Shown piece by piece: positions 10,507 through 44,686 of a stretch of 64,000 bases of DNA. Position 1 is the first letter of the stretch; every line of letters starts with the position of its first letter. Source of the DNA: Psilocybe azurescens (taxonomy: Eukaryota; Basidiomycota; Agaricomycetes; Agaricales; Agrocybaceae); the NCBI GenBank assembly GCA_023853785.1, contig JAJIRX010000696.1:83217-147216 (forward strand), read 5' to 3'. Below the pieces are notes generated by a model. It made no database searches. It was not told the DNA's origin and saw only the letters and a list, made by a program, of their open reading frames with translations. The translations under genes and the position numbers were made by a program.

Positions 10507-12327
10507 TTACACCATCGAGGCTTCGTCTTTGGTACGGGTAAAGCATTTGGTCCACTTTCGGGGACTAGGGAGCTGGATATCCGAGGTGGCATAATGGATA
10601 GCGAGGAGGAGCGATAGGATAACACCCACGCAGGAGGCAGCAGAGATGATACAGAAGTGTTGGCAGAGGATAAATAGAGCCTGGAAAATGCAAATAATGA
10701 ACCCGATAAAAGAAGGTCCTGGGAAGAGCGAAGACCAGAGCGACGCCCTGGAACTTGAAGCGAGGCGAGCAGACTGTGGACAGGTACTCATGGGCCGGGC
10801 TAGCTCCGGCTTTATCCAGACTCTCGTGACGGTGCACAAGAAAGGCGGAAGATACAAAAGCAAGAGCGACGAGGGATGAAGAGAGATAAGCCAGCAGAGG
10901 GTATACAGGAAGGAAGAAACAAAATATATGGAGACTAGATGTACAATCAGGATCCGCATAGAAATATTATATATCAAGAATGAACGCTTACAGAAGAAGT
11001 CCGACGGATCCAAGGGCGATGTTCTGCCAGCCTTTGATGCAGGATGCCATGAAGGAATCCCAGTCGGATCCATAAACAAATTTATCGTTGAAGAGTTCAT
11101 TAAGACGCTTTGAATAGCGCTCAGATGCGCGGAATGTGATCAAAGAGACTATTGACCGAGCCCAGTTGCTCTCAGTCTCCTGCTCGATAAGAATGGAGGT
11201 ATCCCGAGAAAGCCGGGATTGCTCTTGGCCAAAGTGAGTCTCGTATCGGTTGTAAACTGTTGACAAGTCAGAAATTTGTATCCTGCATAAAAACACAGCC
11301 TCACGTACCAACAACACCCCATAACCGGGCAACATATGAAACCGTGTAACCATCCCGGGTACGATCTGAAAAGTTCGGAGTGAGCATTATTGGCGCCGAG
11401 TAAATATAGATAGAAAGGTATGTACCTCGTGAAGCTGTTAAGAGACTGAGAAATTTTTCACAGTCTTTTGCTTCGTAAGGGAATGTAGAAAGTTTAGATG
11501 TAAGGGTGTCTGATTCGGTTGTCAGCATTGTCGTGAGCATTCATAATGTATTACAGAACTTACCAGCTAGAGCATGTGAGAATACAAGAATAAGGTCTTC
11601 GAGACATCTGGGATGTACTCCGCCAATATGCATGCAGAAATTCTCGACATGCGCCCAATATTGAATTTCGAGAGCAAGTCCTAGAAACACAACTTTAATG
11701 GATGATAGTGAGAGCTATTGCCCCTGACTTACTCAAGTGTGAGGGAGAAATGGTTGGGTGCAGACCAAGTTCTGTCGTGTCGTATCGATCGAGCCAGAAA
11801 AGTGTTTGTGTAGATCGGTCAACGAAGTAGTAATTACAGTCTTCGCCATCCAGTTGTAAAAACAGTTCAACTGCTTCGACGGGAAGTAAAAATCCTTTGT
11901 CCTGGGCCAACTTCTCGACTACTGACGCCCAGGCACAAATTCGCTCCCCAATTTCAGAGGTATAGAGATATGCGTCGGTGACGATACTCAGGCCCGCATT
12001 TCGGTGAAAGTAGAGTTTGCCTTCCGGGTGAATGAAGGGAGACCAATGCGCAGGCAGGTACGTGGGTCTGGTGAGGTAGAAATTAGAACACAAGGCTATT
12101 GCGTGGCATGAACTGACTTACGAAGCATCGCGCGTTGAAAGAAACATTCCTGGTTCTATGACTGTCGATACTCGCTGTAGCCTGCAGCATAAGGTTAGCA
12201 ATGAAATATACGCTGAATTACAGGACCTACTTCTTCGTCACATCATATCTGCCAGTAAATTGGGCCACTGAGGGACGGAGAGAACCTAAGACAAAGTTGG
12301 GTCTGGAATCCATTTTGATATTTTCCA
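10507..12327 (-). CDS. WW-like membrane protein, paralog A
   Basis: Member of a four-gene family in this window. Exons read: short start (MENIKMDSRPNFVLGSL), LQRVSTVIEPGMFLSTRDAS, then the WW-like module (HWSPFIHPEGKLYFHRN), the family block with DAYLYTSEIGERICAW and NYYFVDRSTQTLFWLDRYD, EIQYWAHVENFCMHIGG, the DTLTSKLSTFPY..CEKFLSLL block, YVARLWGVVG, and a long exon ending WDSFMASCIKGWQNIALG. The C-terminal part contains hydrophobic segments (AYLSSSLVALAFVSSAFLVH; GVALVFALP; FIICIFQALFILCQHF and following) that should span membrane. It lacks the N-terminal region of B-D. Near 10725 the reading frame changes; this could be one extra T in a T4 run or a 58-bp intron with a weak donor. Function is unknown. 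Confidence 0.7.
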
Positions 12328-12962
12328 TTGGGAATATTTGATAAAGGGGAAGAGGAAAAGGTTCAGAGGTTGCGGTTGTTCGAGTAACTTGGGAGTACAC
12401 CTTTATACTGTATGCTTGTGTATAGAAAAGCAGTGGCACAGCCCATATATTGGCTGTTTTCAATTATGTCACAGCCTCTGTGGTTCCGGGTCTTCAATGT
12501 CACCTGATCTTCTGTCACGTCAATTTGCTCAGCAACTAGGGCAGTACTTGAAGTTGATCGAATTACAGCCTTGCCGTTTCTATTTTCTTGATGTCTGCCT
12601 CTGTTTGGCAAGAGCCTTCCTTGTCTAAACAACCGGATTTGGACGTTGCTCATCTTAGTCATCCAACCTTGCTTCATTGTCAAGCATGCGATTGGCAACT
12701 GTCATAACAATATCGAGGACGAGGGGTGGCATAAAGGCTACACTAAGGAGGAATCCTTACTACTCTATAAGCTCTGTACATTGGCAACTGGAAATTTGAG
12801 CGTAATGACCCTCACTCGAGGCTGGTTGAAAGTAAGATTGTAATAAAAGGTTGTCTGGCATCCCGATGATCACGCCATGATCTTATCGATTGTGATGATG
12901 AGTGACTACGACTATAAACAGGAGGGCTAGTAATATATCATACTGCTCGAATATCAACCTCA

Positions 12963-13523
12963 ATGTCCGCAGAAGGTATCAAGATAAAAATGACGATGAT
13001 GATAATGAAAGGTGAGCAAACTATAAGTGCAACACATTCCTGCTAATCAATATTCATTTGAATTTTTCATTAGGTATCGTACTGAAGGAGCCAGATCGGA
13101 AGATTTTTCCGATTCAAAGGCGCCAATGAACTCAGAAGAATTAAGCGCCTCTGCACACAAGATAGATAGGGAGTCTGAAGAAGGTCAGAATCAGGGGTCA
13201 GGGGAACAGTTGGTATCAGGGGAGGGCAATACTCGTAATGCAGAGTTCAGTAAGAATCATTTTTATGCGCCCACAACACATAACTATAATCGCACGACCC
13301 TTTAGCGCCTGATGCCCCCGTCGATGCCCCAAAGCCACAGGTTGATTTCGTTGATGAAGATGATGATGATGAGCCTGATGACTCAGATGAGGACGACTTT
13401 CCTCGCAATGAAGAGTACGACTATTCTTTCTCTTTGATTTACCCCTAATTAACTTTCTTTAGCAACCCGCGAGGCCGTATCGTTGTCCCCGTGGCTGGTC
13501 AAAGGCCTACTAAGCCTCGATAG
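12963..13523 (+). CDS. Putative small acidic protein
   Basis: Two or three exon-like segments: an Asp-rich piece at about 12970-13010, a Glu/Ser-rich piece 13074-13260, an acidic piece 13305-13419 (VDFVDEDDDDEPDDSDEDDF) and a short basic last exon NPRGRIVVPVAGQRPTKPR ending at TAG 13521. GT..AG boundaries fit at about 13011-13073 and 13420-13462. The start codon is not resolved, because ATG 12963 lies in a different frame from the acidic exons. Composition suggests a disordered nuclear or chaperone-type protein, but no family is recognised. Confidence 0.35.
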
Positions 13524-15869
13524 TCTGTTTACATTATTCTCCCAAGAAACAACCGAGAAATGCACCGCAATATCATTTCCATTTTTTCCCGCCATGTCCT
13601 TCGTATGCCGCAAATCCTGGACGAGTCAAATTTCCACATCAAAGACTTAGCTGTTGAACGTCAAAAAACTATGACCCAACGAGCGTCGGCATACTTTTAA
13701 ATCCATGGCAGCAATCTTGGATTTGCCTTAACTTCCGAAAAATGTAAAGTCGTCCAACTAACGGAGACCGGCATGGAACTTGCATGGAACTTGCATGGAA
13801 CTAAGTCGAACATCTTATCCGACTTTTTCATGAGGTCAACGGTCGTAGTTCTCAGACACGCACATGATTCAGTTGGATGTGGCCGTGGTACTGCGCTGAA
13901 TATACCCCCTGGCCTCTTCGGCCATGTTGCCCGCCGTTGTCAACCCTAACCTTATTCAAGCCCCGGAATGACAGCCCCCGAGTCCGGATCGTCAAAGTGA
14001 GGCCAAAGTGAGGTTTTGAGGCTGTGATAGTAATAGCCTGGGCGCTACGGTCCGAGTAGGGAAAGGACGGCGGGACAAGGGGCGGGGCGCCTGTAGGCCC
14101 TGAGTGGAACAGGTTCCAGCCAAGTGGCTATGTTCACACCGGAATTGTAACTAGTACGTTCAATCCGCTTCTTGACAATCTGGGCGCGCTGTCTGTCTTT
14201 GAATATAACTGAGTCAAAACACCTTTCTACTTTGTTTCTATTAGCCATGGCGATACCGGTGTTACTTGGATGATTAATAGAATTGCAGATGGGACTTCAA
14301 CTGCCATTCCATCTCATTGCGACGTTCGATGATTCCCATCATGGCCCGCCCAGAAATGTTCGGTAGGACGATTGTCCAGCCTCAACGGACATAAAAAAAC
14401 AGTACCCTAATAAAGTGAGATGAAAGTTGGTATACTATGTGGTACTTTGAATTCAGAAGTCTTCTGGACGCCAAAGCTAGAGCTATTAAAGTAAACATTC
14501 GTCCCGTTATGCTGTAAGCGTCAAATGTACGGATACATAATGAATTGGTAGCATTATCGTTGCTGTCCAATATGTCAGTGCGAATGTGCGTAACATATCT
14601 ACCTGGACTGGTCTGACTTTGGTAGTTTGAAATAAGTAGGGTCTTTTATAGTCGATGCTGTTCCCTGATGATGTAGGTACTGAATTATGACAGTAGATCA
14701 ATCAACGTTGCTTCTGATGCATTGCTGGCAGTCAGTTCTAGTCAACAATTTATTTACATATTTATATATTTCTTTTGAATGGCACCGCACTAACAGCCAA
14801 CTGTAAGGTATCGTCACCCGACTAGAGTGTTCCCTCAATTCCAGCTTTGCTTGGTGTGCTTGAACCATGCTCAGGTGAGCCACCTAAGCTCAGACTTCTG
14901 TGATATTGGTAGTGATAGGCCGATAATAAAGGTTGTGGGCCAGAATATCAAACTCCGCCCTGCACGCGGGAATATAAAGAAGGACAGATAAGACTGTCAT
15001 AACGTCGAATTGTGCCCATGGGGGATGCTTCTCGCCCACAACTCGCCCACGTTATGTGAAGTCTGTATGGGCATTTAAAGTATAGCCGGTACTAATTGGA
15101 CCTCTCAAAATTAAATGCTGCGCAACTCACCCACTCAGTCTTCTTTCAGGGACATTTATCTTCAGACTATCATAGTCGTAGGATATCTTTAGTGGGCACT
15201 GTGCAAATTATCTACAACAATCAGGAGAATAGGCTATTTTTCGCAAGAATCTCCCATCAGGTGTGCTTGCCACACAGGTTGGAAGGCTTTGAGAACTAAA
15301 CTCAAATGAGATATGAAAGAACGCCGCCCCTTTCTCGATTGCGGCATTCGGCTCATGGGAAATTTCTACCCCACTTCCAAGTCCGCTGACCCTCGTCCAT
15401 TGTATATGGTTGCCGAGTCCCATCCGTATATGGTTGTACTGCTCTTCTTGAGTGGGAGCAATGTCAGACGGCAGACGGCATGGGGATTGTGGGGACGTTA
15501 CACGAGAGACCTACGCTTCTTGGGTATATGAAATTGTCAGTTGACCATGCATCTATCTCTTATCAAGCGCTCAACTGAGTGATTTCATGATGGAGATAGA
15601 TGAACAAAGTACCAAGTGAATAGCGATTCTCTCCCGTCTTTTTGTTTTGTGTGAAATCTAAGCGCCCAGAGGATCTGAAAAAGCAATGTTTCGGTGCAGA
15701 TCGGATACAAATACCAAGGGACAGTGACTTCCTATGATGCGTTGTGAGTCACCTTTGTGGACAGTCTGCGATTTGATATATATAAAGAAAGGGGTACGAA
15801 TGTTTCTCATTCCCTTCAATCCCCTGCACGCTTAACCAGCCATTGCCTTCGGAAATCGTTTTTGTCCAG
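13524..15869. other. Intergenic, no supported gene
   Basis: No frame with convincing coding signal. A short perfect tandem repeat lies at 13771-13802. Confidence 0.45.
13771..13802 (+). repeat. 11-bp tandem repeat, about 2.9 units
   Basis: Unit GCATGGAACTT repeated head to tail with no mismatch. Confidence 0.85.
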
Positions 15870-16720
15870 TATGTCGAAGTCGATAATGGAAGGCCTAGCA
15901 AAGGCAACAAAGTAAGTCTATTTCCAGGACAATCCTGAAATCGATCTCATCAAATCCAACTACGCCTCTACTTGTACCTGAACAGAAAAATGGTCGCCCC
16001 CACCAGCATTGCAATCGATCCAGTCACAGGGTATGATTCTTTCGGCAATCTATACTATACAGATCTATACTGCGATACTGACGAGTGTCTGTTCTGGTCA
16101 GACCCCAATTGCCAGAGTTCGTTCTCTTTTGTTCGCAATGTGATTGACACAGCGATCGGGCTAATATTTCCTGTAGTATACGAACTCGAGGGCCAGTGCA
16201 GCCTAATGTCAAGGGTAGCTCGACATTGCAGCCGTCCCACCTTCCACCCTCAACGAGCACTTACCCTCCGCCCGGGGCCCAGCCCACTGGCTACTATGGA
16301 CCCGGTCAACCAGGACAAACCGCCGCTAGTGGCCATGTCCAGCCAAGCGGCTATCCTCCTAGCGGCTATCCTTCTAGCGGCTATCCTCCTAGTGGCTATC
16401 CTCCTAGTGGCTATCCTCCTAGTGGCTATCCTCCTAGTGGCTACCCTCCTAGTGGCTACCCCGCTGCCGGCGGTGGCTATCCCCAATCCAGCTCTTATCC
16501 TGCAACAAGTGGTCCCTCTATTGCTTATCCTCCTCAGGGAGGCTATCCTTCCCATAATGGCTATGCTGCACCTAGTGGAGACCCTGCACAGGGAAGCTAT
16601 GCTGCACCAGGGAACCCCATATCCGGACACTATTATCCTATGCCACCAAACAACGGTTTTAACTATCCCGGATCCGGCCACTATCAGAGCAATAGTGGCG
16701 GGTACGGTAATAGCAAATGA
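15870..16720 (+). CDS. YPPSG-repeat, Pro/Gly/Tyr-rich protein
   Basis: Start MSKSIMEGLAKATK, a first intron at about 15911-15985, then MVAPTSIAIDPVTGYDSFGN with an aspartate/cysteine-rich segment (YYTDLYCDTDECLFWSDPNC). A second intron (about 16120-16178, exact phase unsure) leads to a long tail made of consecutive SGYPPSGYPP-type units (15-bp DNA repeats around 16350-16460), then looser GYP/GYAAPS repeats to YGNSK. This tail resembles the PGY-rich segments of annexins, rhodopsin tails and other adaptor proteins, which are disordered and prone to self-association. The N-terminal Tyr/Trp/Cys segment has a WW-like look but no diagnosable domain. Function unknown. Confidence 0.7.
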
Positions 16721-18033
16721 AGTTGAAGAGGAATCTAGGATGATGAAGATGAAGTTGGGTAAGTAGCTGGTATTACACATGATTGCTCAAATAAAGTTTT
16801 CATAATTGCTCTTGTTACATAGAAATTGTTTTTCTGCGCCTACGCTGTATTTTTTTGTCTATGCTTTCCTTGTTTTGTTTTCCGTTGCTTTTTGTATTAC
16901 GTTGATACCCGTATACCATTCTCTGTTTCGTCTCTGTACTTTGTCGAAGTGTTTTGAATGAATTGTATGCTCCCCTCGGGATACCCTCTTACGCTTTATA
17001 TCAAAACCTATATCGTGGACGCTATGAGATCGGGTTCTGATCAACACTGCCCCCATAAGACTGTTAGCATGCTAACGACGTCCCTGCACCACTACGACGC
17101 CGTCGTATCGAGATGCGTAGATTTCTCATAAGACTGAAGTAAATGTGTCTTTCATTCTCTCACCTCTGCCTGCCGTAGGTTTAGGTGCACAGGTGTGGGA
17201 AATGATGATAAACCATTCCTAGAAGCGACATGGCATGCACGCGACGAGAACAGATGACTTACTCTTGTATGTATGTGAGAATACATGCTATAGCATACCC
17301 TGAATCAAACTTGTCAAATGCAATGGTTGAGAGAACCCTAGGAGACTGTTCTTAATATTTATAATTTCTGAAATCTTTCAGAATCAGTCACAGGGCCAGT
17401 GATGGTGGGTGAGTGAAGTGGCAGTAAGCAAAGAAAAGCGAATGGGAGCTTGCCGAGCATATATTCTCATTGTATATAATAGGAGTCTTGTATCAAGGTT
17501 TCAAAGGTTTAGTTCCATAAACTTTTATATGATTACCCCATCAGGCAACGATATTACCTCGATTGGTACAAGATGAGTTTCTGCTGAAAATAACGTCCAG
17601 CAGGGCTGTCCGAGACGGAACAGCATAATGATCGAGGCAGGTTTCTGAAAACCTCATTGGGATCCACGGTCTACTGCCTCCAGCCACTCATCCAGCTTAT
17701 ACCAGCCATAGGCAAATGTCTACCGTAGGTCTGGCAACGATCGTGAAGTGAATCAAGATACTGTCAATTTAAGGTCGATCCAGAGATCTATTCGATCAAA
17801 TCCAGTTATCCCTTTACCCGTACTCCAAAAGGAAGGCCATGGGTCAAGTGATGATGACCTTCTCTAAATTATATAGCTTCAGCCTCAGTAAGATCTAATA
17901 GATAGAAAGCGGAATATCATACAATCGTACTATCTGTCCAAATGTCCAAGACCTATATACATTGATGGCGTTCGTAACCTGTGTGACGTAGCAAAAAGAA
18001 GAGCGGATCCAACATTGGTATGACTTGGCAAGA
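16721..18033. other. Intergenic, no supported gene
   Basis: Presumed 3' regions of the converging YPPSG-repeat gene and paralog B. No gene-like frame seen. Confidence 0.5.
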
Positions 18034-20918
18034 CTACACAGCTGGTGTGCGAGATTTTTGTAATCGATGTCGTATCTGGAGAACCCTTGGAATATTCCAA
18101 AGACGGCTGAAAGCGTTGAGTTTGGAGTTTGGCAAAGTCTCTTCAGTGCTTGTTTCCTTGCTATCCGTCAAGTCTACCGGGGTTTGTGATGGCTTTGTGG
18201 AATTGCTGCCTATGTCGTTGTCCCAAGAAGACCAGGTGCCAATAGAGAATAGTGTTGTTATAGCCGCAATTGCTCCAACAATTGTCCGAGCTTCAATGCT
18301 GGATCTCTCGAAACACAAGAAGAAAACGCCGACTAAAAAGGAGACCACACTGTTGGATGTAGCTGCTTAGTAACTAAGCAGGTACGTTAACCACTGAAAA
18401 ATCTACCTCCATATTGCGAGAGCACATGGTAAGCTATACAGAATGGCGGGCTTCTCCAGGCCTACTACGGGATGGTTTGCTTTGGCAAGAAAGTTTATCT
18501 AAATAACATCAACATCAATCGCATACTCGGCGGTGAAATCCTGAAAATATTTGTAACTGACATAATCGTAGGTGTTGCTCCCTTTATGCAGTCTCACTAA
18601 CTGGGATCCTAGAGCAATACTTCCAACATTGAAGATAATGGAAATATACATAGAAATCTGAGCCGGTGATCTGTGAAACGTTTGCACAGGTTCGATCCCT
18701 TGAACAGACAGAAATCCAACATCCACGTTTAGCATCAGTGTTGCCTTCGGTAAAATAAGTGACGCATTAACATCGAGAGCTCAAGGTGCGTTATTTCGAA
18801 TGACGTACGAGCAGAACCATTTGTTTCCATTCGTAATTCAATGTCTTCATTATATGCTCCCAGTCATACTTGTGAACAATAGCATCGACATATGCTTTTG
18901 AAAGGACTTCAGATTGCTGTCTGGAATGAAAAATAGAAGTGGTGACGAGAGCTTAATGAACCATGTTCGAGACAATCCATTCTCGGCATCAACAAAGACA
19001 GATGCCGTGCGCTCAAGGCGAGCATGCCGTTCTCCGTAATAGTTATAGAACCTTGAGCGAGCTGAATTACCATTTAAATAGGTTGCTTATACGCCAGATA
19101 CCTTTTGAGTTTACATACCGAAAATGTGCATGAGCCGAGCTAACAGCGACGGGAATAAGATTCGAGGCTCTCATGGCGAATATGTAGACACGCATCACTT
19201 ACATACTAGGCTTGCAGCTCCGACAGACTGCCAGCAGCTCGTATTACCTACCGTAATGTTTTAGGATATCGGTCAACTTATAAATTTGATATTTCAGAAA
19301 CTCACGCTTCACGGTTTTTGCCAGAGTCAAGGCTTTCTGTAGCTCTTCTAACGTAAAAGGGGATGCTGAAGTTGGAGAGGACATGACATCTCCATGACAT
19401 ACACTTGAGATCCCAGTCGCTAGCAGGAATTGAATTGGGATAGCGTACCTCCGGAGAAGTGCAGAACCATGTCTAGGAGCTCGTGAGCCAACTGGTCCGT
19501 TACCTTGAGACTGTGAGGGTACAAGACGATATGATACCTGCATACATAGACATCAGCACCATAACCGATCTGCATAAATACACATCGGGCTGCATGAACC
19601 AATGTGCCCAATACTGACCAGTATTGTGCTTCAACTTCGTGTCCTAAGACGCATATTAGTCCGTTGTTGCTATCAAATTTAGCTATAAGACTTACTGAGA
19701 TGACTTCCACTGATGGCACCTCGAATTTCATACCAGACATTTAGATCACTGGCATTGAACACATCCAAAAAAAATACCGTCCGTGTTGGATGATGCAAGT
19801 AGTAATATTTGGTTTCAATGGCTCCATGCTCACCGTACCGGAGGTCTAGGACAAGATCATAGGCTTCTGGAAGGATGATGCCATTGTGGGATACAAAATG
19901 TTCCAATATACTGAGGTCAGTCATGATTTGATGCAATATCGTATAGTCGTAAAGGTCTGCGTCCGTGTACACGTTCTATGGGGTTGTTCATCGGTGCTTT
20001 CAAATTGAAGGTATATCGGGGAGAATGTAAATACCTTTTCTGCATGATAAAAATAGCGACCACCTTCTGGATGCGTGCATTTGAACCACCCGCTGGCGTG
20101 AAAGAACTGATATATCCAGATATGTAGACTTTTTAAATCGTGTAGTCTAAGAAATATCGGAGCGCAACCCACTTGTCAAACATCATAGTCATAGGCTGAA
20201 TCGTTATTCCGGTGATTTCCTTTGCTCTGAAAACCAAATAATATCAATCCTCAATTTTCCATAAAAGATGAAAACAGATCGTACATCTTATGTCTTCCCT
20301 CGTATCGCATGATACCCTCAGGCATTACAGGTCTAATCCGAGGATGGTTCAGGTGTGGGAAAGCCATATTTGAGTTCGGGAAGCCGTAAGCAGGGTTCAA
20401 AACAGGTGGATCAGGCTCTACAGTCAGCCGATTTTGTTCATCGAGAGGGAGATTCGCAGACTCGAGATTAGGTGAATACTGTGAAGAATGGTATGGTACG
20501 TTATAAAGAGCATTGGAGGGTATAAAGAGCACATGGCTTCTGCAAGGCAGACAGTGTCACTGCTGTCAGGAATGCTTATCGTGCGTGGTTCGGCAAGGTG
20601 AAGGTACGCGTCAACGTTCGTTATGGATTCCGTGGCACCGGGTGAACGAATCACGATACCCCAGTCATCAGGAGTAACTGGCGTTCCCCAGCATTTTGTA
20701 GTCTCCATCAACCTTCTTACTATCGCCCATATGTGCAAGTGCCATCGTTTTTGGAGGACGAAGAGGAGGTGACCGAGCCAGCGAATGAAGTCCGAGATCG
20801 CCGATAGCGGGAGGCCCCGCTTTAGACATCGCAGTACAAACCGACGTGTAGCCTGAAAGGTCAAAGCTGCAAGCATCGCAGAGCACAAGTAGCCCTGGTA
20901 AGGCAGAATGGTGTCCAA
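18034..20918 (-). CDS. WW-like membrane protein, paralog B
   Basis: Spliced gene starting MDTILPYQGYLCSAML. The N-terminal part is amphipathic (VLRCLKRGLPLSAISDFIRW). A 68-bp intron (about 20538-20605) restores the frame into an exon with NLESANLPLDEQNRL and HLNHPRIRPVMPEGIMRYEG. Next come ITIQPMTMMFDK, the WW-like SGWFKCTHPEGGRYFYHAEK, then VYTDADLYDYTILHQIMTDL, YYYLHHPTRTVFFLDVF, EVEAQYWSVL and ELLDMVLHFSGG. The SSPTSASPFTLEELQKAL block precedes several small exons and the membrane region (MLNVDVGFLSVQGIEPV; ISIIFNVGSIALGSQL; MVSFLVGVFFLCF; TIVGAIAAITTLFSIGTW). A Ser/Thr-rich cytosolic-type tail ends at 18034. Exon order and spacing match paralogs C and D. Function unknown. Confidence 0.75.
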
Positions 20919-20975
20919 AGCAAAGGCTAGTTTTGAAATATTCCCGTTTCAAGGTTCAAGGCAGTGCACTAGTAA

Positions 20976-21453
20976 GGGTCTGTTCGGATGGCATAATCAT
21001 AATCGATTATGGATTATTGATGGCATTCATATTATTCCCACCAGCCCAAATAAGAAACTTATCATTTTTGGATGACACGTCACCTTCGCTGTGCACTATT
21101 CGGTATCTTGTTGTGGACCACGGAGCTCATCGTCAGCAACAGTGAGCTGCTCTCCAAGGAGCAGTTTTTAGCATTGTCTGGCGCTGCGTGATAATTATAT
21201 TAAATAAAAGTAATAAAATATTTTTACCGCTTCGTTTGCTCCAATTATGAAACCCTGGTAAGTTATTCATGAAGGCGGGGAGTAGCAGCGGGATGGGCGG
21301 GATGGGCACGTATGGCAATAGACGTTGGCATCGGGACTATGAGCGTCGGACATGTCGTGGCTGTGTTGACATTTCCCAATTTAGGCTTGTGGGAAAAATA
21401 TGGATGCCATCAATAATCATAATCGTGGTCGATTATGCCACCCGAACAGACCC
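20976..21453. mobile_element. PIF/Harbinger (Tourist)-like MITE, 478 bp
   Basis: Ends are GGGTCTGTTCGGATGGCATA and, inverted, GGGTCTGTTCGGGTGGCATA. The inverted similarity extends imperfectly for about 75 bp on each side. TAA flanks both ends (20973-20975 and 21454-21456), the 3-bp TWA duplication typical of PIF/Harbinger. No transposase is encoded. Confidence 0.8.
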
Positions 21454-21921
21454 TAATCTCAACATCAACCTGCTTAAATTGGCCCTTCTCACAGCCTGAG
21501 CAAGCTGGCTGTGTGATAGCGTATATAATCGACCAGCGCCACTAAGTTTATACTCGATGATCCCTAGCCGATACGGGAATTTTCAGATTCCACTTTCGCT
21601 GTATTGGGCAGGGCATCCGAGTCAAGCTTTATTCATTGCGGCGCTTAAGCGGCGTCTGATAGCGGCAGAAGAGAATCACCTCTATGCATCTGACTATTAC
21701 AGCTCTACAAGAAAGTGAAACAAATATACATTTAAGAAATACATCGGGATAGTACAGATATATAGTCTTGTCACAATATAATATCCCGGCGTGCGAGGTT
21801 TCGGTCAAATGTATGCGAATGATGTCAATGATCGATGTGTACAAGTGCAAGTGTGATCATTACAGTCGTAATCGTAGTCGTAGTCGTAGTCATCGTGAAT
21901 TTGCGCATAACAGGATCATCG

Positions 21922-24900
21922 TCATACACGCTCGTTTATTGCTGTATGGTCTGAGTCATATGATGTCCGTCGCAATGCCTGGATAGCGGGGAGATTCCAG
22001 AATTTCGAGATTATGTGGGCCCGCCATGACTGAAATTGTATACGTGAACTGCTCGACCGTTGAGAGCTCCGGTCGTCCATTTTGGGGTCCGAGGGATCCA
22101 CTGGCTTATCATCTTCGTGCTTTTCCCAGGACGTATATACACACCAAATCACTAGGACAGCTACGGCGAAGCATAATGATCCCACGAGAGATCGTGTAGG
22201 CACGCTAGAATCTGCGAAACACACAAAGGAGAACGCCGCCAAGAATGACACCATCCTGATAGAAGACAGCTAAGTGCGAGCTACGATAGAGAGGAGGTAA
22301 ACAACATACCCCCACATGAGGAGCGCATATGGTAAACTGTACAGGATTGCGAGCGTCTCCAATCCCAGCCTCGGGTGCCTCCGCCTCTGCAAATAGTCTT
22401 GCTGGAAGCGCAGTTAGTGGGTATAGACCAAAATGATGTTATGATGCAGTACTGACCACTTCGTGGACTGTTTCGCGATTTTTTGTTCTGTTTTGTCGAA
22501 TTAACAATAGTCCAAGTACGATGCTCCCGATACTTGCTACCACAGATAAATAGCTACCAATCTGGGCAGCAGATCTATGCGGATCATTGTCAATGTCCAC
22601 ACTCTGAATAGCCAAGAATGCTACGTTCGCGTTGAGCATGACTGTAGCCTACACCGTATTCAGTTAAGAAAAAGGGGGTAAATGAAAAGATATAACAATA
22701 ACTCACGAACAGAACGAATTCTTGCCACTCGTCATTCATTTTTTCATCGATTCTTCCCAAACGTTTTTATGCATTATACCATCCACCCACATATTCTGGA
22801 GGGTGCGCAAATGGAAGTCAGGGGAAGAAAAAGGACAATGGACAGTGACTTGATGAGCCATGTACGCTGATTGATGGCGTCCCCGTGTACAGAAAAGTTG
22901 CGTTCTATACGAGCGTGTCCTTCCCCGTGAAAATTGAGAAATTTTGAGTGGACTTGGAACACAAATGGGCAAATGGGGTTGCACAGACAACATAAAATAA
23001 TATCTCACCAAAAACATACATGAGGCGGGCTAATTCATCTTATCAGTACGCAACGGATAAAAGAAGTGAAAATTCCTTGCCTAGGAGACTAACAGATCCA
23101 ACGCAATACGCGTCTAGATTATCTGAAAAGGACATCCGACGTTATCATCATATCGTCGAAGATCAATAAAGAAATAGCTTACGCTCCAGACTTTCAGCTA
23201 AGGCCAGCAACTTGTTGAGTTCTTCCACGGTATACGGTGCTGTCGATGTAGGGGATGTCATCGTATCTTTAATCAAAATACATATTAGGAACGACTTATG
23301 TCCGAGGAGACCATATTTCAAACCTCCAATGAAGTGGTGAACCGTGTCTCTGAGTTCATCAATCATCGCCTTCGAAAGTTTGGCAGCGTGAGGATATAGT
23401 ATAAGAAAATGCCTACTCAGAAGAATCAGCCTAAGAACAACGTAACATTGAGAATTAGTACCAGTATTGGGCCTCGATTTCATGACCTTTTAAAGTTAGC
23501 AGGTTAGAGGGCTGAGTTCAGAGTAGAGGTTGAGAACTAACGAAGATGGGCCTCTGTTTTGTACCCTGAGATCTCATACCAGGAATACAAGGAACCGGTG
23601 TCGTAGGTATCCAAGAAAAATATTGTTCGTGAGTCATGATCGACATAGTAGTAGTTATTCTCGATGATCGATGGATCTTCTTCTTTGTAATCCAGGTGCA
23701 TGACCAGATCGATATTTGTAGGCATTTCTAGTCCTCCAGTGTGAATGAAATTTTCGCAAAGTGCGATATCTTCCATAAGTTGAGACAGAATCTTGGGATC
23801 GTAGAGATTGGCATCGGTGTAGACTCTCTGTTGAAACATGAATAAACGCAGGAACAATGGAATGGAATTCAGAAACCTTTTGTTCATGATAAAAATATCG
23901 CGCTCCTTCGGGATGGACGTACTTCAACCACCCTGAAGGAGGAATGGGTCTGAAAATCGGAGTAGGAATGATTGGAACGGGGTTATGAACAGAGAAAGAT
24001 TTAGCCCACTTTTCGAATACCGTTGTCAAAGGTTGAATAACGATCGTCATATCATCCCGTCGTCTATGCAGTTCGGCTAAGTATGGGCGTCAATAAGAGT
24101 AATAACATTCTGACATTCTAGGTCTCCTGTTATAGCGTTGGTTGGCTTCAGGCATCGTAGGTATTATCCGATCATTATCCAGGCAATAATTCGATGCCGA
24201 AGATCGCACCGAGGGAATACCGATGCTCGTTCTGTCGATTTCTTGAGGAGACATCACTTCTGAAAGTTCAACAATCTGGGATGGTTGTCGAGGATGAGAA
24301 ACATCGATGCGTGGACGAATGCGAACGTGAGGTCGTGCCGGTGGTATGACGAATGGAGTGGAAAGGTCGGGCAAGGATTGGGAGAATCTGCGGGTAGGTG
24401 TTGGCAAGGTCGGCGAGGTCGGCTGAATGACGATAGTGTAACCCTCGTTCTCAGTCCCGACGTGTGATATTGCAGGTGAAGGGGTGCGTATGGATTCCCC
24501 AAGGTGTGACCGAGATTCGCTACGAAGAGATATGGCCCGAGAATGTGCTGCTCTGGATGCATTCAAATTTTGAGAGGATCTCGACGCGCTCCGTATTCCA
24601 CCTTCAGAGAATGGGAAAAGGGAGTATGCGACATTTTGATCGAGGCATATAGTTTCATCGTCGTACACGAGAGCAAAGTGCTCCGTTCCGTCGTACAACA
24701 GATGCTCGTCTTCATTCGAGTGCACACCGACCGTTTCCTCTTCTCTATCCTTCAACGTCGAACTCGCATTCTTTGGGCGAGATTTATGTTCACCTCTTCC
24801 TGCATCCTTGCCTCCCCGGCTCCATTTCAAGCGAAGAATCGACCAGTAGAAACGCAGCGGTCCAAAAATACGAGCAAGCACCTGCGATATAACACCTTTC

Positions 24901-24968
24901 TTCAAAATCCTCAATGCAAGTCGCAATAACGAAGTAAGGAGAGGGGAAAAGTGTAAGCCTGTGGTCAT
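21922..24968 (-). CDS. WW-like membrane protein, paralog C (best preserved)
   Basis: Longest family member. ATG 24968 gives MTTGLHFSPLLTSLLRLALR, matching the N-termini of B and D; an in-frame ATG at 25106 would add a Cys/Ser-rich stretch not seen in them. After a long Ser/Arg/Pro-rich region come IVIQPLTTVFEKWAKSFSV, the WW-like SGWLKYVHPEGARYFYHEQK, RVYTDANLYDPKILSQLMED, NNYYYVDHDSRTIFFLDTYD, a short exon with GHEIEAQYW-type sequence, IDELRDTVHHFIGG, and MTSPTSTAPYTVEELNKLLA. Then follow LRTLQNMWVDGIMHKNVWEE, NDEWQEFVLFATVMLNANVA and several membrane segments (SYLSVVASIGSIVLGLLLI; LAILYSLPYALLMWG; MVSFLAAFSFVCF; LVGSLCFAVAVLVIWCVY), with a charged tail to 21922. The YYVDH..RT block resembles the core strands of a WW domain with the second Trp replaced by Phe. 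Function unknown. Confidence 0.78.
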
Positions 24969-26222: not shown

Positions 26223-26447
26223 ATGTCCACAGAAATTCCGAAAATCTTTGAACAAAGCGTTGATGATGGCTCAACTCCTCTTGTATTGCCATCTGGGGGT
26301 GGCTCAGTGACGACAACCACAACAGTCACAACCACCCACATCACCGTGTCCGCCGATGGCGACTCTGAGGAACATCAGATCGTCGCTAAAGAAGTTTCCG
26401 TCACAACTCAAGGCGTAAAAGCTTCCCAGAACGATAACAACAACGAT

Positions 26448-26479
<32 letters not shown>

Positions 26480-26719: not shown

Positions 26720-27034
26720 GCAGCAGCTAAAGCCAAAGCCAAAGAAAGGAGAGAAAGTTGTGCGTAAGCTCCAAGGGACGTGTTTAGAAACCAGCCTCTG
26801 GCTTGGCCTTAATTTGTGGCATGTGTAGATACCTTGAACAATGCTCATGGACATTTATCATCACCCACCGATTTGGAGAGAAAAGGGAGAAGGAAGAAAT
26901 TTCAAGCACGACAAAGCGCCTCAACCAAACTCTGAGCCGATGCCAAAATGACAAAACACACCGTTGGAATGCGATTCATCCATTACAATGGGTACATCAC
27001 AACTTCATAACCATATTTGTTCGTCATTCATTCG

Positions 27035-28177
27035 TCAACCCCTCCTCCTTGCTTTCGGCGTCCAGCTCTCCGTATCTGAAGCCGGCCGCGAGGGCATTGG
27101 AGGTGGGAGTGGAACCTGGGCCGCCTCTTCCTTCCTTTTAGCTTCGAACTTGGCCTCCCGGGATTGCTCAGGCTGTAGTTCCCGACTTGGTAGATTTTCT
27201 GCGCCTTCGAGTTGGCCAACGGACGAAGGCAGCGTAAACTTCGCAGTCGTCCGAGACTTTCGCGGTGTGGCGGGTGTGACGAATTTGGGAGGGAGGACCT
27301 TCGGTGGCGCTTGCGCAGTGGTCGATGTTGATGTCGATGCTAATGTCGATGGGGCAGCCTCAGGTGGCTGGTTTTTTTGCTGTTGCCGCGTGACGGTGGA
27401 TACATGCGGCATATCTGCTGCTGCTGAAGGAGTATTCGCCGGTTCAGGGACCAAAGGCACCGCGTCGTTCCTCGTAGCTGCTTCCTCCAGAGCCCGTGCA
27501 GCATCATGCTGCCGTATCCGTAACATCTCCTCGCTTTCCGCCCGATCTCGTGCTTCGATAAGTGCAACATTTGCCGATACACGCTGCTGGCGCATCATGT
27601 CCGCTTGGAGTTCCTAAAACGCGCATATAACATGGCCTCAGTCTAGTCATTATGGGAGCATGGGGGTCACTGACTTCGATAGTTGGCGGATTGGGACGCG
27701 TATGGGTCAGCCATGCTGACCACTGAACTGAATGAAGAAAATTGTCAGTGAAATATTTGGCTGATAACTCGAGTATGATGCTTACCTGGGAGGCGTTTGC
27801 CGCCACCAATGTACTTCCACATGTCCTCGGGCTGATAATACTCTACAGTCCGCTTCGCTCTGCTCGGATCTACATATATGACCAAGGCATATTAGCCACG
27901 AATGATTTTTTTGGCATGGCTTTTGCATGCCGGGTGTTTAGTAGTACAAACCATTGGGTGAATATGCTTCATAAAATTTGTTACCTGGACGTGCCATTGT
28001 CAGAGAATATCCAACCCGCATCGTTAATTCATGAACTCACCGTGCAAATCCCTTCCCACATATCGCACCTAGTCAATGCAGAACTGTATAAGCTTTGAGC
28101 TCGAAAATGCGGTTCAGAATACAATTGGAGCTCACTGGGTTCCTGATAGAGTTCCATAGCCTCGCGACGAAAGACAT
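27035..28177 (-). CDS. NDUFAF2/NDUFA12-family complex I protein with long C-terminal extension
   Basis: Start MSFVARLWNSIRNPVRYVGR at 28177. Short exons follow: DLHGNKFYEAYSPNG, then DPSRAKRTVEYYQPEDMWKY, IGGGKRLPVQWSAWLTHTRP, NPPTIEELQADMMRQQRV and NVALIEARDRAESEEMLR. The GNK-(F/Y)-(Y/F)E, R-x-V-E-Y, P-x-x-W-x-x-WL-x-x-TR-x-x-PPT-x-E-E-L pattern is diagnostic of the 17.2-kDa NADH dehydrogenase subunit (NDUFA12) and its paralog assembly factor NDUFAF2 (mimitin). The ELQ.D..RQ extension favours NDUFAF2, which works in late complex I assembly in mitochondria. The remaining about 150 residues are Ala/Pro/Thr-rich and probably disordered (ending TESWTPKARRRG). Introns are 50-100 bp. Confidence 0.82.
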
Positions 28178-28582
28178 GTTGTCGAAGTCGTCAGATTATT
28201 GCGTAGAGTACAGATATTTTGTAACAATTAGAAAAGGATATAAGCAACAACAAATGTGAAGATTCAAACAAGGTTAAAAATGCACTTATGAAGGAGCTCG
28301 ACTCAGACAAGGCTTCCGCAAAACACCGTTGTGCCCATTACGTCAGCGAATCTGTTACGCTGCACATCTTTGCGACTGTACCTACCAGAGTACACAGCTA
28401 TCCTGAATCCTGATGCAGCAGTAGTAGAGTATGCGTGTCGAATTTAAGCAGACCACTCATGACCAACGAAAAATAGATAAAACCAAATTACAATACACTG
28501 CAGTTCAAGTAGCCTTACAGAAGACAAAGAAATGTATTGCGACCACTACATTGCAGGCATAATAACGTGGACAATACAGCGA

Positions 28583-30305
28583 TCAGAACTCTGGGCCCAT
28601 ATCTTCGTCGTCCAAGTCACCGTCCTGGATCTCTTTCGCGAGCTCCTTCTCTCTTTCTCGTGCACCTTCAGCAGCAGCGAGCTCTTTACGGTGGGCGTTG
28701 AGAGGATAGCGCATAGCCTGTAGTCGATGTTCTAGTGAGCATATGCAATCCCAGCACAAGAAGAAAATGCAAACGCACCTTGACACTCTGGTTGTGCAGG
28801 TCCAGACAGAATGTGATACGGCGGCCAAACAGCTCGCTGACTTCAGGCCCGTACCCATTCTTCTGACTGCCACACTCCATCCATCCTTTCTCGTGCACCA
28901 TCTTGCCCTCAATGACGCCGTCGCGGATAGCCTTGGTGACGACATACTCGGCGTTTTCTTCCGAGTCCAGGTTGAGCTTGACGCAGATGTCTTTCAATGA
29001 GATACGCGAGTAGGACAGCGAGAGCCTTCGGAGACCAGTCTTGATGACGTTTTGTCGTAGGCGGAGGACGAGCTTGAACAGGTTGTCTTCTTTGAATTGA
29101 TCACTGTGTTTGTTCAACGTATCCTCGAAACGGGCCAGCGACCCCGATCGTACAGCTGCAAAATACAGTCAGCACAATAATAATGGGCCAGAGAAAACAA
29201 AGAGCTCGCCTTTACGGTTTCGAAATATGCATTGAGGGGTTTCTTCAACACCTCGTGTCTGAAGGTGGTTCGATCAGGGATATCACCCATGAGTAGCTCC
29301 ACAACCACAAAGAACTTGTGTATGGCCTGATAGAAACCTGGGGCAGTCTTTGCAGGTGGGGCACGGCGGATCGCTTGCTGGAGATCGGTATGGGCGTCGG
29401 TATAATTGAGCTGAATGGCCTTGATGCGTCCGAGGTAGAAGTAGTATCGTGCAAGCTGGCCGTTGCTTGCGGATAGAGGGAAGACGGCTTTGGAAACAAG
29501 TTGTTGAGCCGGGAAGGGCTGGTCGAATGAGAGATAATTGTTTAGGAGACAGTTGAGGAGTACGGCATTTGCTTCGTCGTCGTGTCGCAATGATGCTGTT
29601 CGTTGGGCAGCGAGGAATAGCCTGCAGGAAAACGATATGCGGTGAGGCCAGGGCAGACAACCTTATAAGAGAGAGAAACGTACGGCCGGGCCTCGGGGAG
29701 TAGATCATTGACTGAATATGCACGGTCCACTGCATGCCAGATTTTTGCAGCGATGGCATCCATGCTACGTCTGTTCAGTTCCTGCATCTTCTTTACGGTC
29801 TCGTTTGCTAGATCGAGAGCCTCCGAGTGGGTTTCCTCGTCCTTGAGAAGGTGGTAGAGAATCAGAAGTCGGAGGTACATCTCTACTTCTGGAACAGTCT
29901 CTGACAGCGGTGTCTTTGAGGGTGTGTCGACTTCCATGCTTTGATCGTCCGACTTTGAAGCAGCAGGCAACCATGATAGTAATTTGCTCTTCAAAGAAGT
30001 ATCTATACAGTCCGCATTCATTGGAGTCATGCTGAAGAGTCAACTACCAAAAACCGACCTTTGGTATAGATGGCTTCAACAGCGTTACGCAGAATCGAAG
30101 CATCGATGCGCTTGCGCAGGGCAGTCAAGGTGCGTAGAACACGATGGGTGAATCGGGGTTCGAGAGTGGTCACTGCTCGGTCAATGAGCGCAACGTTGTT
30201 CTTGATTTCCACCAGAGGATGCAATGGTGCGGGTTTTGATTCATCTTTGCCATTTTCTTCTTCGACCTTCTTGTCATCTGCGGGTTTCATTTCAACGTCA
30301 GGCAT
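28583..30305 (-). CDS. RPN3: 26S proteasome regulatory subunit Rpn3 (PSMD3)
   Basis: Non-ATPase lid subunit of the 26S proteasome 19S particle. Start MPDVEMKPADDKKVEEENGK. Exon 1 holds LVEIKNNVALIDRAVTTLEP and RFTHRVLRTLTALRKRID. Later exons hold EVEMYLRLLILYHLLKDEET, the TPR-like helical region (DDEANAVLLNCLLNNYLSFD; LARYYFYLGRIKAIQLNY), and the PCI domain: HSDQFKEDNLFKLVLRLRQN, GLRRLSLSYSRISLKDICVK, AEYVVTKAIRDGVIEGKMVH. The C-terminus (KELAKEIQDGDLDDEDMGPE F) is the short acidic tail seen in Rpn3. Four introns are visible (about 30000-30055, 29623-29683, 29160-29210, 28723-28780). Length, about 490-500 residues, fits the family. Confidence 0.95.
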
Positions 30306-30446
30306 CGTGGTTGGTTGGTGGCAAAGTTCAAGGAGGAGTTCAAGTTATAATTGAGGAACGAATTTGGACGAAGGTGACGCGTCGCGTTCACTAAAGCCGG
30401 TCGTTACAATAAGAATTTATAAATTAATATGTTCCATGTTTGACAT

Positions 30447-30529
30447 GTCTCGATAGCTAAGTGGTATAGCATGCGATTGCAGTGAAAGCTCTCATCGCAG
30501 GGTCCGGTGTTCGAACCACCGTCGGGACT
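30447..30529 (+). tRNA. tRNA-Cys (GCA) with an 11-nt intron
   Basis: Acceptor stem GTCTCGA pairs with TCGGGAC (one G-T pair), with discriminator T at 30529. The D arm is GCTA-loop-TAGC. The anticodon stem TGCGA/TCGCA encloses TTGCAG plus TGAAAGCTCTC plus A, so removal of 11 nt after position 37 leaves a 7-nt loop with anticodon GCA. The T arm is CGGTG-TTCGAAC-CACCG. The RNA polymerase III terminator follows directly. Confidence 0.93.
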
Positions 30530-30533
30530 TGAG

Positions 30534-30549
30534 TTTTTTGTTTTTTTTT
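30534..30549 (+). terminator. RNA polymerase III T-run terminator
   Basis: T6, G, then T9 begin 5 nt after the tRNA-Cys gene end. Confidence 0.85.
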
Positions 30550-30786
30550 CGGTCTCAATCAAGTACCTTCGGTACTTCAAATCAGCATCAATTCTTGCTC
30601 GCTTGCGCCGACCTGTCTCTCATTGACACTACAACGACTTGGATAGGTGTTCACTGTCGAGCGGCATTGCCCAGCGCAGCCTGCTATATTCCTTTTGCTA
30701 TTCAGCTGGACCTCAGCGTTGAATCCTACCCCTTTGTTAGCCATGGTTGACGGTCATCAACGAGATAATACTGACAGGGAACCGTC

Positions 30787-30813
30787 AGGAACGGCAGGAA
30801 CGGCAGGAACGGC
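30787..30813 (+). repeat. 9-bp tandem repeat, three units
   Basis: Perfect AGGAACGGC x3 in the intergenic region between the tRNA and paralog D. Confidence 0.85.
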
Positions 30814-31030
30814 ATATTCTTAGCATATCCTTTTGCTCCAAAAGGGATGTTTGGACAAGGCTTTCTGAAAGTCCGGACATGTTCCCACTGAATGACAGGC
30901 GATATGTTCACAGCGTTTTGGCCAGTATTAATTCTAAGGACTTAATGGGACGACGGCGCATCATTCAGTCATTCAGACACTCTTTAACCTTCTAATCCCC
31001 CCTCTACTGCTGGGAGGCTCCTACTGAGCT

Positions 31031-33712
31031 ATGGGTGCGAAGCCCCTCATCCAACTCCTCCAAATCTTCATTGCGACTCGCAAGAAATTTTCGAATGTCC
31101 TCAGCTACCTGCTAAGTCAAACAGGCACCAGGATCCTGCAGAATGTAGCCTTTCTTGTGGCGGTCTTGCGAGCGAAATGGAATTCGAGGAGCCACGCTTG
31201 TGGCTAGAGGACCAGGAGATAAACCAACTTCATCGATCCCTGCTACGAAGGATGACCCATTTTTTCCAACGCCGAGCAAGGAACCAGCCTCGAATACAGT
31301 CTGACGACAAACGGCGAAATCATCTCCAGAGACAATGTCGCGTTCTCTTCGTACCCTTCTTCCAGCACACCTGCCAACCGGTTCTCTACATCATGGACTC
31401 AGCTTCATTTTCGGCCACAGACGGAAACAGTCATCTCTGAAGCGCGCTCGACATCAACCGTCATCGAAATGTCCGAGTTCAGCTCTCGTTGGGAATCGAA
31501 CGTCACGAGCAGGCTTATACTCTCGCAAGCAGGCACAACCACATTCTTTAATCATCCTCGTATTACGCCTATGATGCCTGAAGGATCTCGGCGGTATAAA
31601 GAACGATCAAGCAGGTACGAAAGATACTACGTATTTTTTCATCTCATTCCATCGACCTGGTTATTAGGGAAAAACGTGGCAGGAAATTCAACTCTCACCT
31701 ATCGACTAATACTGCAAAGTGTGCCTTCTCTGCTTAGTTCTATCGATATCTGATCCCCTGACATTGTCCCGCAAGGCACCCCTCTCCCCTGGGTGGGCTC
31801 AGTGCACGCACCCTGAAGGAGGGATATATTTTTGTAATAAAGACAAGGTCTGTTTAGGTGTTGAGAATCTATAACAGACGCATGTCACTCATCTACGTGC
31901 TGCAGAGGGTCTTTACAGATGCAAACATCTACGATACCCTGATATTCCAACAGATGCTCGAGGATATATCCACTATCGAAGAATTTATCTCAACCCACAA
32001 TATAACTCTCCCCAGGAACTGCGATCTCGCTCTTGACGTGACTTACAATAACGCCTGTCAAGAGATCCAGACCGTTTACTATTTCGTCCATCACCCGTCC
32101 CGGTCTATCTTCTTCCTGGATAACTATGAAGCTCCTTGGTGTGAGCTCAAAGGCATTAATTCATCTAGTCACCTCCGTCAGTGCATTCGTTTCTTGAATA
32201 CTGTGTATAGGCCACTGAAGAACCCTCCTTGCAATAGGCGAAGAGCTTGAAGCGCAATATTGGTGAGATAGCACGCGTACATCTCGAAGGGCATGCATTT
32301 ACAGCGATCACAGGTTATATCTTCAGTTATATCCTCAAGCTTTTGAGATATCGTCTACCTTAATCTATGAGCTCCGCGACACAGTTCTTCATTTTATTGG
32401 AGGTACGAGTCACTGATAGTTCTCCACACCGTATCACACAGCTAAGCTCCTCGCAGATAGTATGTCCTCACAAGCCTCGGCCACGATATATAGCTTGGAT
32501 GAACTGTATAAAATCCTGACATTAATCGACAATCTGGAAAGTATGTTTCGAATACTCTCACCTATCAATCATCTTCGATGCTCATGTACCTTCTACAGAG
32601 AATCAGGGACGTGAATCTAACGGAGCAGTTGGTTTATTGTGTGAGACCCAGTTATGCATTCTATTTCATTGAAGTCCCACTGAATTGTATCCGTCCAGCC
32701 CGTCTCATGCATTCCTTTGGTAATTGATTCTCAACTCCGTTGGCCTGGTACTAAACATTGCCTGTCCCGCAGCACAATCGCGGGTTTACGACTCTCACGG
32801 AGAAGTACAAAATCGTTTGAAGAACGAAGTTCAGGTCGCAACCTACGCCGTCCAAACCCCGCAACGAACGTGGTTTATCAAGATAGTTTCGCCTCTCCTG
32901 TTCTCCGCCCCTAATCTGTATCTCCGGACACTACGAAGGATGTGGGTCATCGGCGCCACCCACACCTCTGTTTGGGATCAAGGAGTAACAAGGTTACGGC
33001 ACGAATGGCGGGAATTTATATTTTGGGTAAGCATTTGGTTATACGTCAATCCTTTGCCTTTCAGTGTGTTAAATAAACTGGACTGCACAGTCTATCCTGC
33101 TGCTCATTGCAAATGCAGCACTCCTGGGGATCCGTGATGTCGGCTTGAGGCACTTGGACCTGGAACATAGATCTGGAGCACAGATCTCCAGCTATGTATC
33201 TGTTGTGTTTGCCATTGGAAGTATCTTCTTGGGATTGATTTTCCGCGAACATATCTTGACGAGCAGCCGGGACCTCATTGGGGATGTAGTGAGCCTGTTT
33301 TCATTTACTTTATGAAGTCCTCGACTGACTGCTTGTGCTTAGAACGCCTATACCGCAAGACGTGCTTACTCTCTAGTCGGCATAGAAGCTCGGGCCATTG
33401 TATATAGTCTTCCCTATGTTCTTCTTATGTGGTCGTAAGCTTTCTTCTAAATTTGATGCAGGTAGAAACAATTCTAACTGATTCCTCCCAAGGGTTATTG
33501 CCTTTGCGATAGCTTTCGCTTTCCTTTGCTTCCAAGATACAAGAAGAGTAACGAGGATTGTTGCTGGCATATTTGCAGGGGTCGTGGCAATTCTTGTCGT
33601 TATTGGCATTTCTATCTCTTGGGAACGATATTCGGAACCAGCGCCGGCGAGGTCCGTCGATAGCAATTCTCGATCAAAGACGCCGGAGAAGGTGAATGCG
33701 GCGGAAGTTTGA
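31031..33712 (+). CDS. WW-like membrane protein, paralog D (frame-broken N-terminal half)
   Basis: Opposite orientation to A-C. ATG 31031 opens MGAKPLIQLLQIFIATRKKF..LRAKW, equivalent to the N-termini of B and C. The next 700 bp stay coding-like but jump frames near 31190 and at a T6 run (31260-31265), and again near 31730. From about 31775 it reads smoothly through introns: PGWAQCTHPEGGIYFCNKDK, RVFTDANIYDTLIFQQMLED, TVYYFVHHPSRSIFFLDNYE, EELEAQYW, IYELRDTVLHFIGG, MSSQASATIYSLDELYKILT, NQGRESNGAVGLL, SRLMHSFG, NLYLRTLRRMWVIGATHTSV, RHEWREFIFW. The membrane region follows (SILLLIANAALLGIRDVG; SYVSVVFAIGSIFLGLIF; AIVYSLPYVLLMWS; VIAFAIAFAFLCF; RIVAGIFAGVVAILVVIGIS), ending NAAEV. It is either a decaying copy or affected by sequence errors. 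Function unknown. Confidence 0.65.
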
Positions 33713-36991: not shown

Positions 36992-37165
36992 TATTTTTGA
37001 CAGTACACTCTACACTCTATCTAAAAACTCTCCTCGCCGTCTCGACGTCTGGTAACTTCTGGTCTGATCAACCAGAACCATCCGCCTCAAGACAGCAAAA
37101 TCTGATTTGTTCGAATCTTTGTTATCCCGTACGTAAATCTTTGAAATTTTTAATTACTAAATACT

Positions 37166-44654: not shown

Positions 44655-44686
44655 ATTTTTCTGAGCACCCTGAGCCTCCCAAAACA

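Follow-up and report, generated by a model that had tools for sequence, protein, structure and literature searches.

Both forms of an apparently unstudied mushroom membrane protein family with WW-like modules at a four-gene locus of Psilocybe azurescens

A 64,000-nucleotide stretch of the Psilocybe azurescens genome (assembly GCA_023853785.1, 70.4 Mb in 937 contigs; contig JAJIRX010000696.1, positions 83,217 to 147,216 of the forward strand), hereafter the window, carries four homologous genes packed within 24 kb, three on the minus strand (genes 1-3) and one on the plus strand (gene 4). As judged from sequence comparison, the locus encodes both members, a short form (gene 1) and a long form (genes 2-4), of a pair of membrane proteins that is ancient in mushrooms and whose genes often lie close to each other. 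The genes had been proposed in a sequence-only reading, and their re-location, spliced models and shared homology bear out the places and strands then given; homologue searches, a structure model and residue conservation likewise agree with its description of a multi-pass, WW-like, uncharacterised mushroom family. The scans made turned up no Pfam family specific to it, no description of it was recognised in the open-access full-text literature (by WW-domain, mushroom and locus-tag topics), and it is apparently unstudied.

With residues 280-700 of the gene 3 product as query, at least 479 proteins were recovered at E<=1e-3, a lower bound obtained from 7,994 scored candidates. The best 120 of these 479 matches, whose named species we take to be mushroom-forming Agaricomycetes, are the listed proteins to which the long-form conservation counts refer. 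The best match is Psilocybe cubensis JR316_0009015 (P0001), with 76% identity over the searched region. Gene 1 as query recovered 55 proteins, the complete ones being about 480 residues long, headed by Psilocybe cyanescens CVT25_013354 (P0241; 90% identity, 100% of the query). In a midpoint-rooted tree of 63 rows (30 of the 55 short-form proteins, 28 of 85 long-form rows and five from this genome), one branch with support 100 separates the 30 short from the 28 long rows, and gene 1 pairs with P. cyanescens P0241 (support 100). The short side includes Ganoderma, along with Heterobasidion and Butyriboletus, and the long side Trametes, Amylocystis and Sparassis. Since Ganoderma and the latter three are presumably all Polyporales, which thus occur on both sides, the duplication that gave rise to the two forms appears, as far as a quick tree shows, to predate the split between Agaricales and Polyporales.

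The two forms also tend to be linked. Among the 24 assemblies with a named gene 1-type match and a long-form match among the 120 listed, 18 have both on one contig, as matched by eye between the two match listings, and the window itself (gene 1 with genes 2-4) is a further case. Hebeloma, Agrocybe CPC08, Candolleomyces, Mycena rebaudengoi, Mycena CBHHK59/15 and Psilocybe cyanescens are the six without a shared contig. Annotation numbers, a rough guide only to genomic distance, lie three apart in P. cubensis (JR316_0009015/0009018), Coprinopsis cinerea (CC1G_07674/07677) and Agrocybe pediades (D9613_009952/009955).

A second tree, of 92 rows (85 of the 120 listed long-form proteins and seven from this genome, leaving out the alleles on contig C54 and the second copy on contig C666, both described below), contains one-species clades in Phlegmacium (five rows), Coprinopsis MPI (four), Psilocybe cf. 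subviscida (four), Flammula (three, a fourth Flammula row being placed elsewhere), Cyathus (three) and Pluteus (three), supporting a lineage-specific multiplication of the long form. The short form is present at one or two copies per assembly among the matches listed. Gene 3 clusters with P. cubensis (support 99), gene 4 with Galerina P0061 (100, and 99 in the 63-row tree) and gene 2 with copies of the same genome on contigs C533 and C529 (100, those two with half of the columns). A recent local expansion, as first supposed, is therefore not what the trees indicate: genes 1, 3 and 4 each have their nearer relatives in other species, and gene 2 has its recent copies elsewhere, on other contigs.

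The genes and their parts are arranged as follows (TM, transmembrane helix):
10507..12328, minus: gene 1, short form; spliced model, last exon placed by eye against P0241
12328-12231, 12181-12122, 12067-11733, 11680-11564, minus: gene 1, exons 1-4
11509-11426, 11365-11309, 11256-10992, about 10934-10507, minus: gene 1, exons 5-8, the last by eye
11733..12067, minus: gene 1, exon encoding the two WW-like modules (HWSPFIHPEGKLYF, NYYFVDRSTQTLFWLD)
18034..20876, minus: gene 2, a long form of 13 exons, of which 1 and 10 contain frame breaks
20876-20285, 20226-20173, 20092-20035, 19972-19696, 19643-19619, minus: gene 2, exons 1-5
19537-19449, 19389-19306, 19247-19203, 19139-19119, 19061-18809, minus: gene 2, exons 6-10
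about 18744-18562, 18498-18407, 18349-18034, minus: gene 2, exons 11-13, by eye
21922..24968, minus: gene 3, long form, 13 exons; ortholog of Psilocybe cubensis JR316_0009015
23877..23949, minus: gene 3, exon 3, WW-like module 1 (GWLKYVHPEGARYFYHEQK); strands by analogy with P0006
23542..23827, minus: gene 3, exon 4, helix linking the modules, then WW-like module 2 (NYYYVDHDSRTIFFLD), its strands assigned after P0006
22457..22952, minus: gene 3, exons 10-11, pre-TM helix, TM1 (ATVMLNANVAFLAIQSVD) and TM2
21922..22401, minus: gene 3, exons 12-13, TM3 (LETLAILYSLPYALLMW), TM4 and C-terminal tail
31031..33712, plus: gene 4, long form, closest to Galerina P0061

The first seven exons of gene 1 measure 57-335 nt and are separated by six GT-AG introns of 49-60 nt; its last exon has one apparent frame break, and intact orthologs occur in other species. 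Splicing of gene 2 gave 11 exons; re-reading of its end by eye gave exons 11-13, for 13 in all, and the resulting exon plan is that of gene 3. In gene 3, exon 10 has two frame breaks (with X at the breaks, the spliced protein is 800 residues long), and intron 8 (23030-23080) is read as GC-AG. Exon by exon, gene 4 can be aligned to the same long-form proteins as gene 3; stops in the expected frame of its first exon leave the 5' part uncertain. The exon order that all four genes had been said to share thus holds for genes 2 and 3, and for gene 4 by its exon-by-exon alignment, but not for gene 1, where the stretch from the first to the second WW-like module is a single exon and at least two introns of genes 2 and 3 are missing. 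Similarly, the N-terminus is indeed absent from gene 1, but this is no peculiarity of that gene, as the other short-form proteins inspected start near the same point. An 'HFIGG' motif had been read across an exon end, and spliced gene 3 has HFIGD.

The predicted architecture comes from an AlphaFold2 model of Galerina P0006, whose residue numbering is used throughout, built with 120 rows (mean pLDDT 75.9, 402 of 778 residues at 90 or above, pTM 0.68). In the model, two helices at the N-terminus (6-23 and 28-52) precede a region of low confidence (58-230). N-terminal helices and about 170 disordered residues are additions of the long form, which also has near-invariant polar residues in TM1 and an acidic residue at the outer end of that helix; most of these features are missing from the short form. 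Two three-stranded WW-like modules are then predicted, module 1 at 297-318 (strands 297-301, 307-311 and 316-318) and module 2 at 353-382 (strands 353-361, 367-375 and 380-382), joined by a helix (325-344) and continued by helices between 404 and 500; both modules, packed with this helical block, are predicted to form the cytosolic part of either form, beside a helical membrane part that has four helices in the long form. A single WW domain split by about 70 residues, as had been suggested, is not what the model contains. Four predicted helices (557-595, 606-635, 658-687 and 692-717) coincide with the four hydrophobic segments found, in keeping with the "four or more" originally counted. Modelling of the C-terminal part alone with 30 rows (79 of the 120 were judged complete and 44 picked) returned the same helices (mean pLDDT 82.4, pTM 0.73).

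Conserved motifs noticed in the nucleotide sequence proved to be real, W297 (118/119), Y371 (120/120), W571 (120/120) and P667 (119/119) being near-invariant in the long form. Module 1 keeps the first Trp of a WW domain in 118 of 119 proteins and has Asp or Glu at the place of the second in 117 of 118. Module 2 has no first Trp; it keeps Tyr372 (115/120), His376 (116/120) and Arg379 (109/119, with Lys in six), and its second-Trp place is held by Phe in 59 and Trp in 53 of 118. An alignment of 42 of the 55 short and 85 of the 120 long rows, in which the row for one C666 copy (C666a) is without TM1-TM2, has Trp at that place in all 42 short rows and His376 in just 31; gene 1 has Trp there and Arg at His376. 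Replacement of the final Trp by Phe, as noted earlier, describes genes 2-4 but neither gene 1 nor the family as a whole.

The likeness to the WW domain (PF00397) lies in the predicted three-stranded sheet, with a probably antiparallel order to judge from the strand plan, in the first Trp of module 1 and in the Trp or Phe at the second-Trp place, Tyr and His of module 2. Unlike WW domains, neither module has both signature Trp residues, and a helix links the two, with a helical block following the second. The Pfam WW model matched 22 of 59 long-form members at E<=0.1, all under the cut-off (best score 24.3 bits in P0109, against 26.9), and ten scanned short forms reached 23.2 bits at most. WW chains are among the Foldseek matches of the model, and a profile search of PDB sequences gave ten weak matches (E 0.022-0.81), nine of which we take to be WW-bearing proteins. 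In WW domains the ligand pocket is formed at the Tyr, His and Phe/Trp positions, and because the conserved residues of module 2 fall at these places it could, by analogy, still bind a peptide. [L/P]PxY motifs occur in only eight of the 120 long-form members themselves, so that any ligand is probably another protein.

Conservation of TM1-TM3 equals or exceeds that of the cytosolic part. Weighted entropy is 0.93 bits in TM1, 1.15 in TM2, 0.75 and 1.53 in the two halves of TM3 and 2.14 in TM4, and TM1 and TM2 have no variable face. Polar or charged residues are kept in the long form at N583 (107/120), N585 (118/119), Q592 (112/120), D595 (116/120) and R604 (114/120), whereas the 42 short-form rows have mainly Leu/Ile, His and Pro at those places, with D595 and R604 falling in a gap. 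Within the genome the pattern is strict in gene 3, which keeps all five, and relaxed in gene 2 (N583, Q592 and R604 kept, Asp at 585 and Glu at 595) and gene 4 (only N585 and R604 kept). Basic residues are conserved between helices 2 and 3 (R/K630 116/120, K/R635 101/120), suggesting that this loop, and with it both termini, is cytosolic.

In its predicted arrangement the membrane part somewhat resembles the animal calcium channel Orai (CRAC): four predicted helices come in the same succession, the first (557-595) is long, the termini are probably cytosolic and an Asp lies at the outer end of TM1, where Orai also has one; the Orai-like structural match spans nearly the whole chain in two models. 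Many unrelated helical proteins are matched at a middling Z. Orai, a hexameric channel gated by STIM, has a Glu selectivity filter at the outer end of TM1 (E178 in the fly protein), and a gapless helix alignment from 561/148 places E178 at I591 (115/120), beside Q592; unlike Orai, the family thus has Gln near the filter position, with Glu at 592 in a single protein. A large WW-like cytosolic part and the existence of two paralogous forms are further differences. The Pfam model Orai-1 (PF07856), present in all of 120 listed Orai proteins, matched none of the 120 listed long-form proteins or the 55 gene 1 matches, had no match at E<=10 in six-frame, exon-by-exon scans of the P. azurescens genome and was not among the 25 commonest of 91 families weakly matched by 30 members at E<=10. 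A profile comparison against Orai, represented by close vertebrate relatives, gave no match either.

A six-frame genome search with P0001 led back to the window cluster and, beyond it, to contigs C54 (a second set of all four genes), C666 (two copies in tandem) and C533 and C529 (one place each). C54 runs colinear with the window (95.7-97.3% identity in the three longest pieces and 89.9% in the next, of 5.9 kb at 15.1-21.0 kb of the window) and is read as the other haplotype. The C666 pair (C666:414501-424500) consists of two long-form genes in tandem stretches of about 4.4 kb that are 93% alike, reflecting either a recent duplication or haplotypes assembled in tandem; one copy, C666a, clusters with P. 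cyanescens P0039 (support 100, 92-row tree). Divergence between the haplotypes is 0.4-4% per 500-base step in most of the window and 0.2-4% in most steps over genes 1, 3 and 4, intermediate in gene 2 (3-11%) and highest between genes 1 and 2 (peak of 7-13%; 5.7-13.0% over 12001-18000). Balancing selection on the genes was provisionally rejected as an explanation, the maximum falling between genes 1 and 2; the gene-end steps are raised too (8.5% at 12001-12500, 7.4% at 18001-18500, 10.9% at 20501-21000 and 6.3% at 21501-22000). A second raised stretch lies at 50001-52000 (5-9%).

The clustering of divergent, partly broken copies had been taken as a sign of birth-and-death evolution. Frame breaks are present in genes 1-3, as are the stops in gene 4 exon 1, but comparison of the haplotypes does not separate decay from assembly error. 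Frame-breaking indels between haplotypes number 14 in 7,737 aligned exon bases of the family (with approximate exon limits for gene 4) and ten in 4,664 bases of six controls (Fisher p 0.68), two of which have Pfam support, namely a glycosyl hydrolase 47 open reading frame (ORF) at 58800-59360 of the window, which lies at the end of C54, and an Rpn3/PSMD3-like 26S proteasome subunit gene between genes 3 and 4 (28583-30305, minus; Pfam TPR_PSMD3_N and PCI), the other four being ORFs only. The Rpn3-like gene alone has one in 1,395 bases (p 0.72), and the family rate is 2.5 times as high in a test of little power. The break in exon 10 of gene 2 occurs in the window and not in the C54, C533 and C529 copies. 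Assembly error is a sufficient explanation of the breaks, decay being possible as well; the breaks do not demonstrate birth-and-death decay.

Gene models, homology, the two forms, linkage, predicted architecture and conservation were computed here; topology, oligomer, channel activity, subunit roles and ligand we infer. As a tentative and still doubtful proposal, the long and short forms may together build an oligomeric channel or pore of the membrane, where TM1 of the long form would line the permeation path or lie next to it; regulatory input would come through the WW-like part (above all module 2, which through its conserved Tyr, His, Arg and Phe or Trp would sense a cytosolic partner) and the short form would be a regulatory or structural, less polar subunit. 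An oligomer with TM1 inside is suggested because TM1 and TM2 are conserved on all faces and the polar residues are near-invariant in one of two linked paralogs. A more specific version, set in mushroom-forming fungi as a group considered to have lost Orai, is a two-subunit channel of Orai fold with a long-form Asn/Gln pore ring and outer Asp, a non-conducting short form and gating by the tandem WW-like modules, which each species would tune by adding long-form copies at a locus that Agaricales have conserved; it seems distinctly improbable.

Two other explanations are close rivals to the channel. The proteins might instead be membrane-anchored WW scaffolds or adaptors without a pore, recruiting partners in hyphal growth or fruiting, a somewhat unlikely reading with which the residues of module 2 (Tyr 115/120, His 116/120, Arg 109/119, Phe or Trp 112/118, short-form Trp 42/42) and the long, predictedly disordered N-terminus would agree. 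A plain anchor, however, is not expected to keep TM1-TM3 at or above the conservation of its cytosolic part or near-invariant polar residues inside TM1, and, with [L/P]PxY motifs scarce in the members themselves, any ligand would probably be another protein. Rather unlikely is an endomembrane lipid or small-molecule transporter or assembly factor, for which the fold likenesses would be generic helical matches. The middling Z against many unrelated helical proteins and weak matches to Yip1, TctB, RseC and other membrane models speak for it, yet in the ten members tabulated none of these reached its cut-off, and no catalytic or substrate motif was recognised. SLATT, Yip1, TctB and similar families were rejected as assignments on the same grounds, amid the 91 families matched weakly.

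Less probable still, and in our view very unlikely, is a role in non-self recognition as an effector of cell death or membrane rupture, comparable to NINJ1 or to bacterial two-TM effectors. NINJ1 has two TM and two amphipathic helices that polymerise in the membrane, and it was matched structurally over TM1-TM3 only (model residues 32-163); its solved chain of 110 residues, unlike the present proteins, is without a WW-like or helical cytosolic part. SLATT (PF18160) scored 18.6 bits in P0001 against a cut-off of 29.5, and its weak matches, in two of 59 and eight of 30 members, sit, as SLATT_5, among many other weak membrane matches. Against such an effector also stand the strongly conserved TM core, the one or two listed short-form copies per assembly, the lack of a HET domain in Pfam scans (E<=0.1) of ten proteins of each form, and a peak of haplotype divergence that lies between genes 1 and 2, outside the genes. 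The self/non-self role once suggested for the cluster thus found no positive evidence, the divergence of gene 2 leaving it some room.

A widespread family with two ancient, often neighbouring forms and near-invariant intramembrane residues is a good candidate for basic, unstudied mushroom cell biology, and the linked pair is a concrete object on which to test a partnership of both forms. According to a passage of PMC3410928, the fungal genomes examined there are without Orai1 and STIM1 homologues; if the family does form a channel, it would account for some of the cation entry into fungi that this reported absence leaves unexplained.

Other features of the window were recorded as well. An ORF with tandem PPSGY repeats (16196-16720) lies inside the divergent stretch between genes 1 and 2, and a tRNA-Ala (30447-30529) beside the Rpn3-like gene. 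About 9.5 kb of the window (36645-46193) are not on C54, constituting a haplotype insertion difference, and include an ORF of 1809 amino acids (38644-44073) that reads like a retrotransposon polyprotein, with zinc-knuckle, reverse transcriptase and integrase motifs seen by eye. An ORF at 58800-59360 encodes a partial glycosyl hydrolase family 47 domain (102.7 bits). Three stretches (47640-48322, 54715-55329 and 57234-57857) have non-colinear counterparts on C54, matching at about 67-71%, a hint of a further small gene family in the area.

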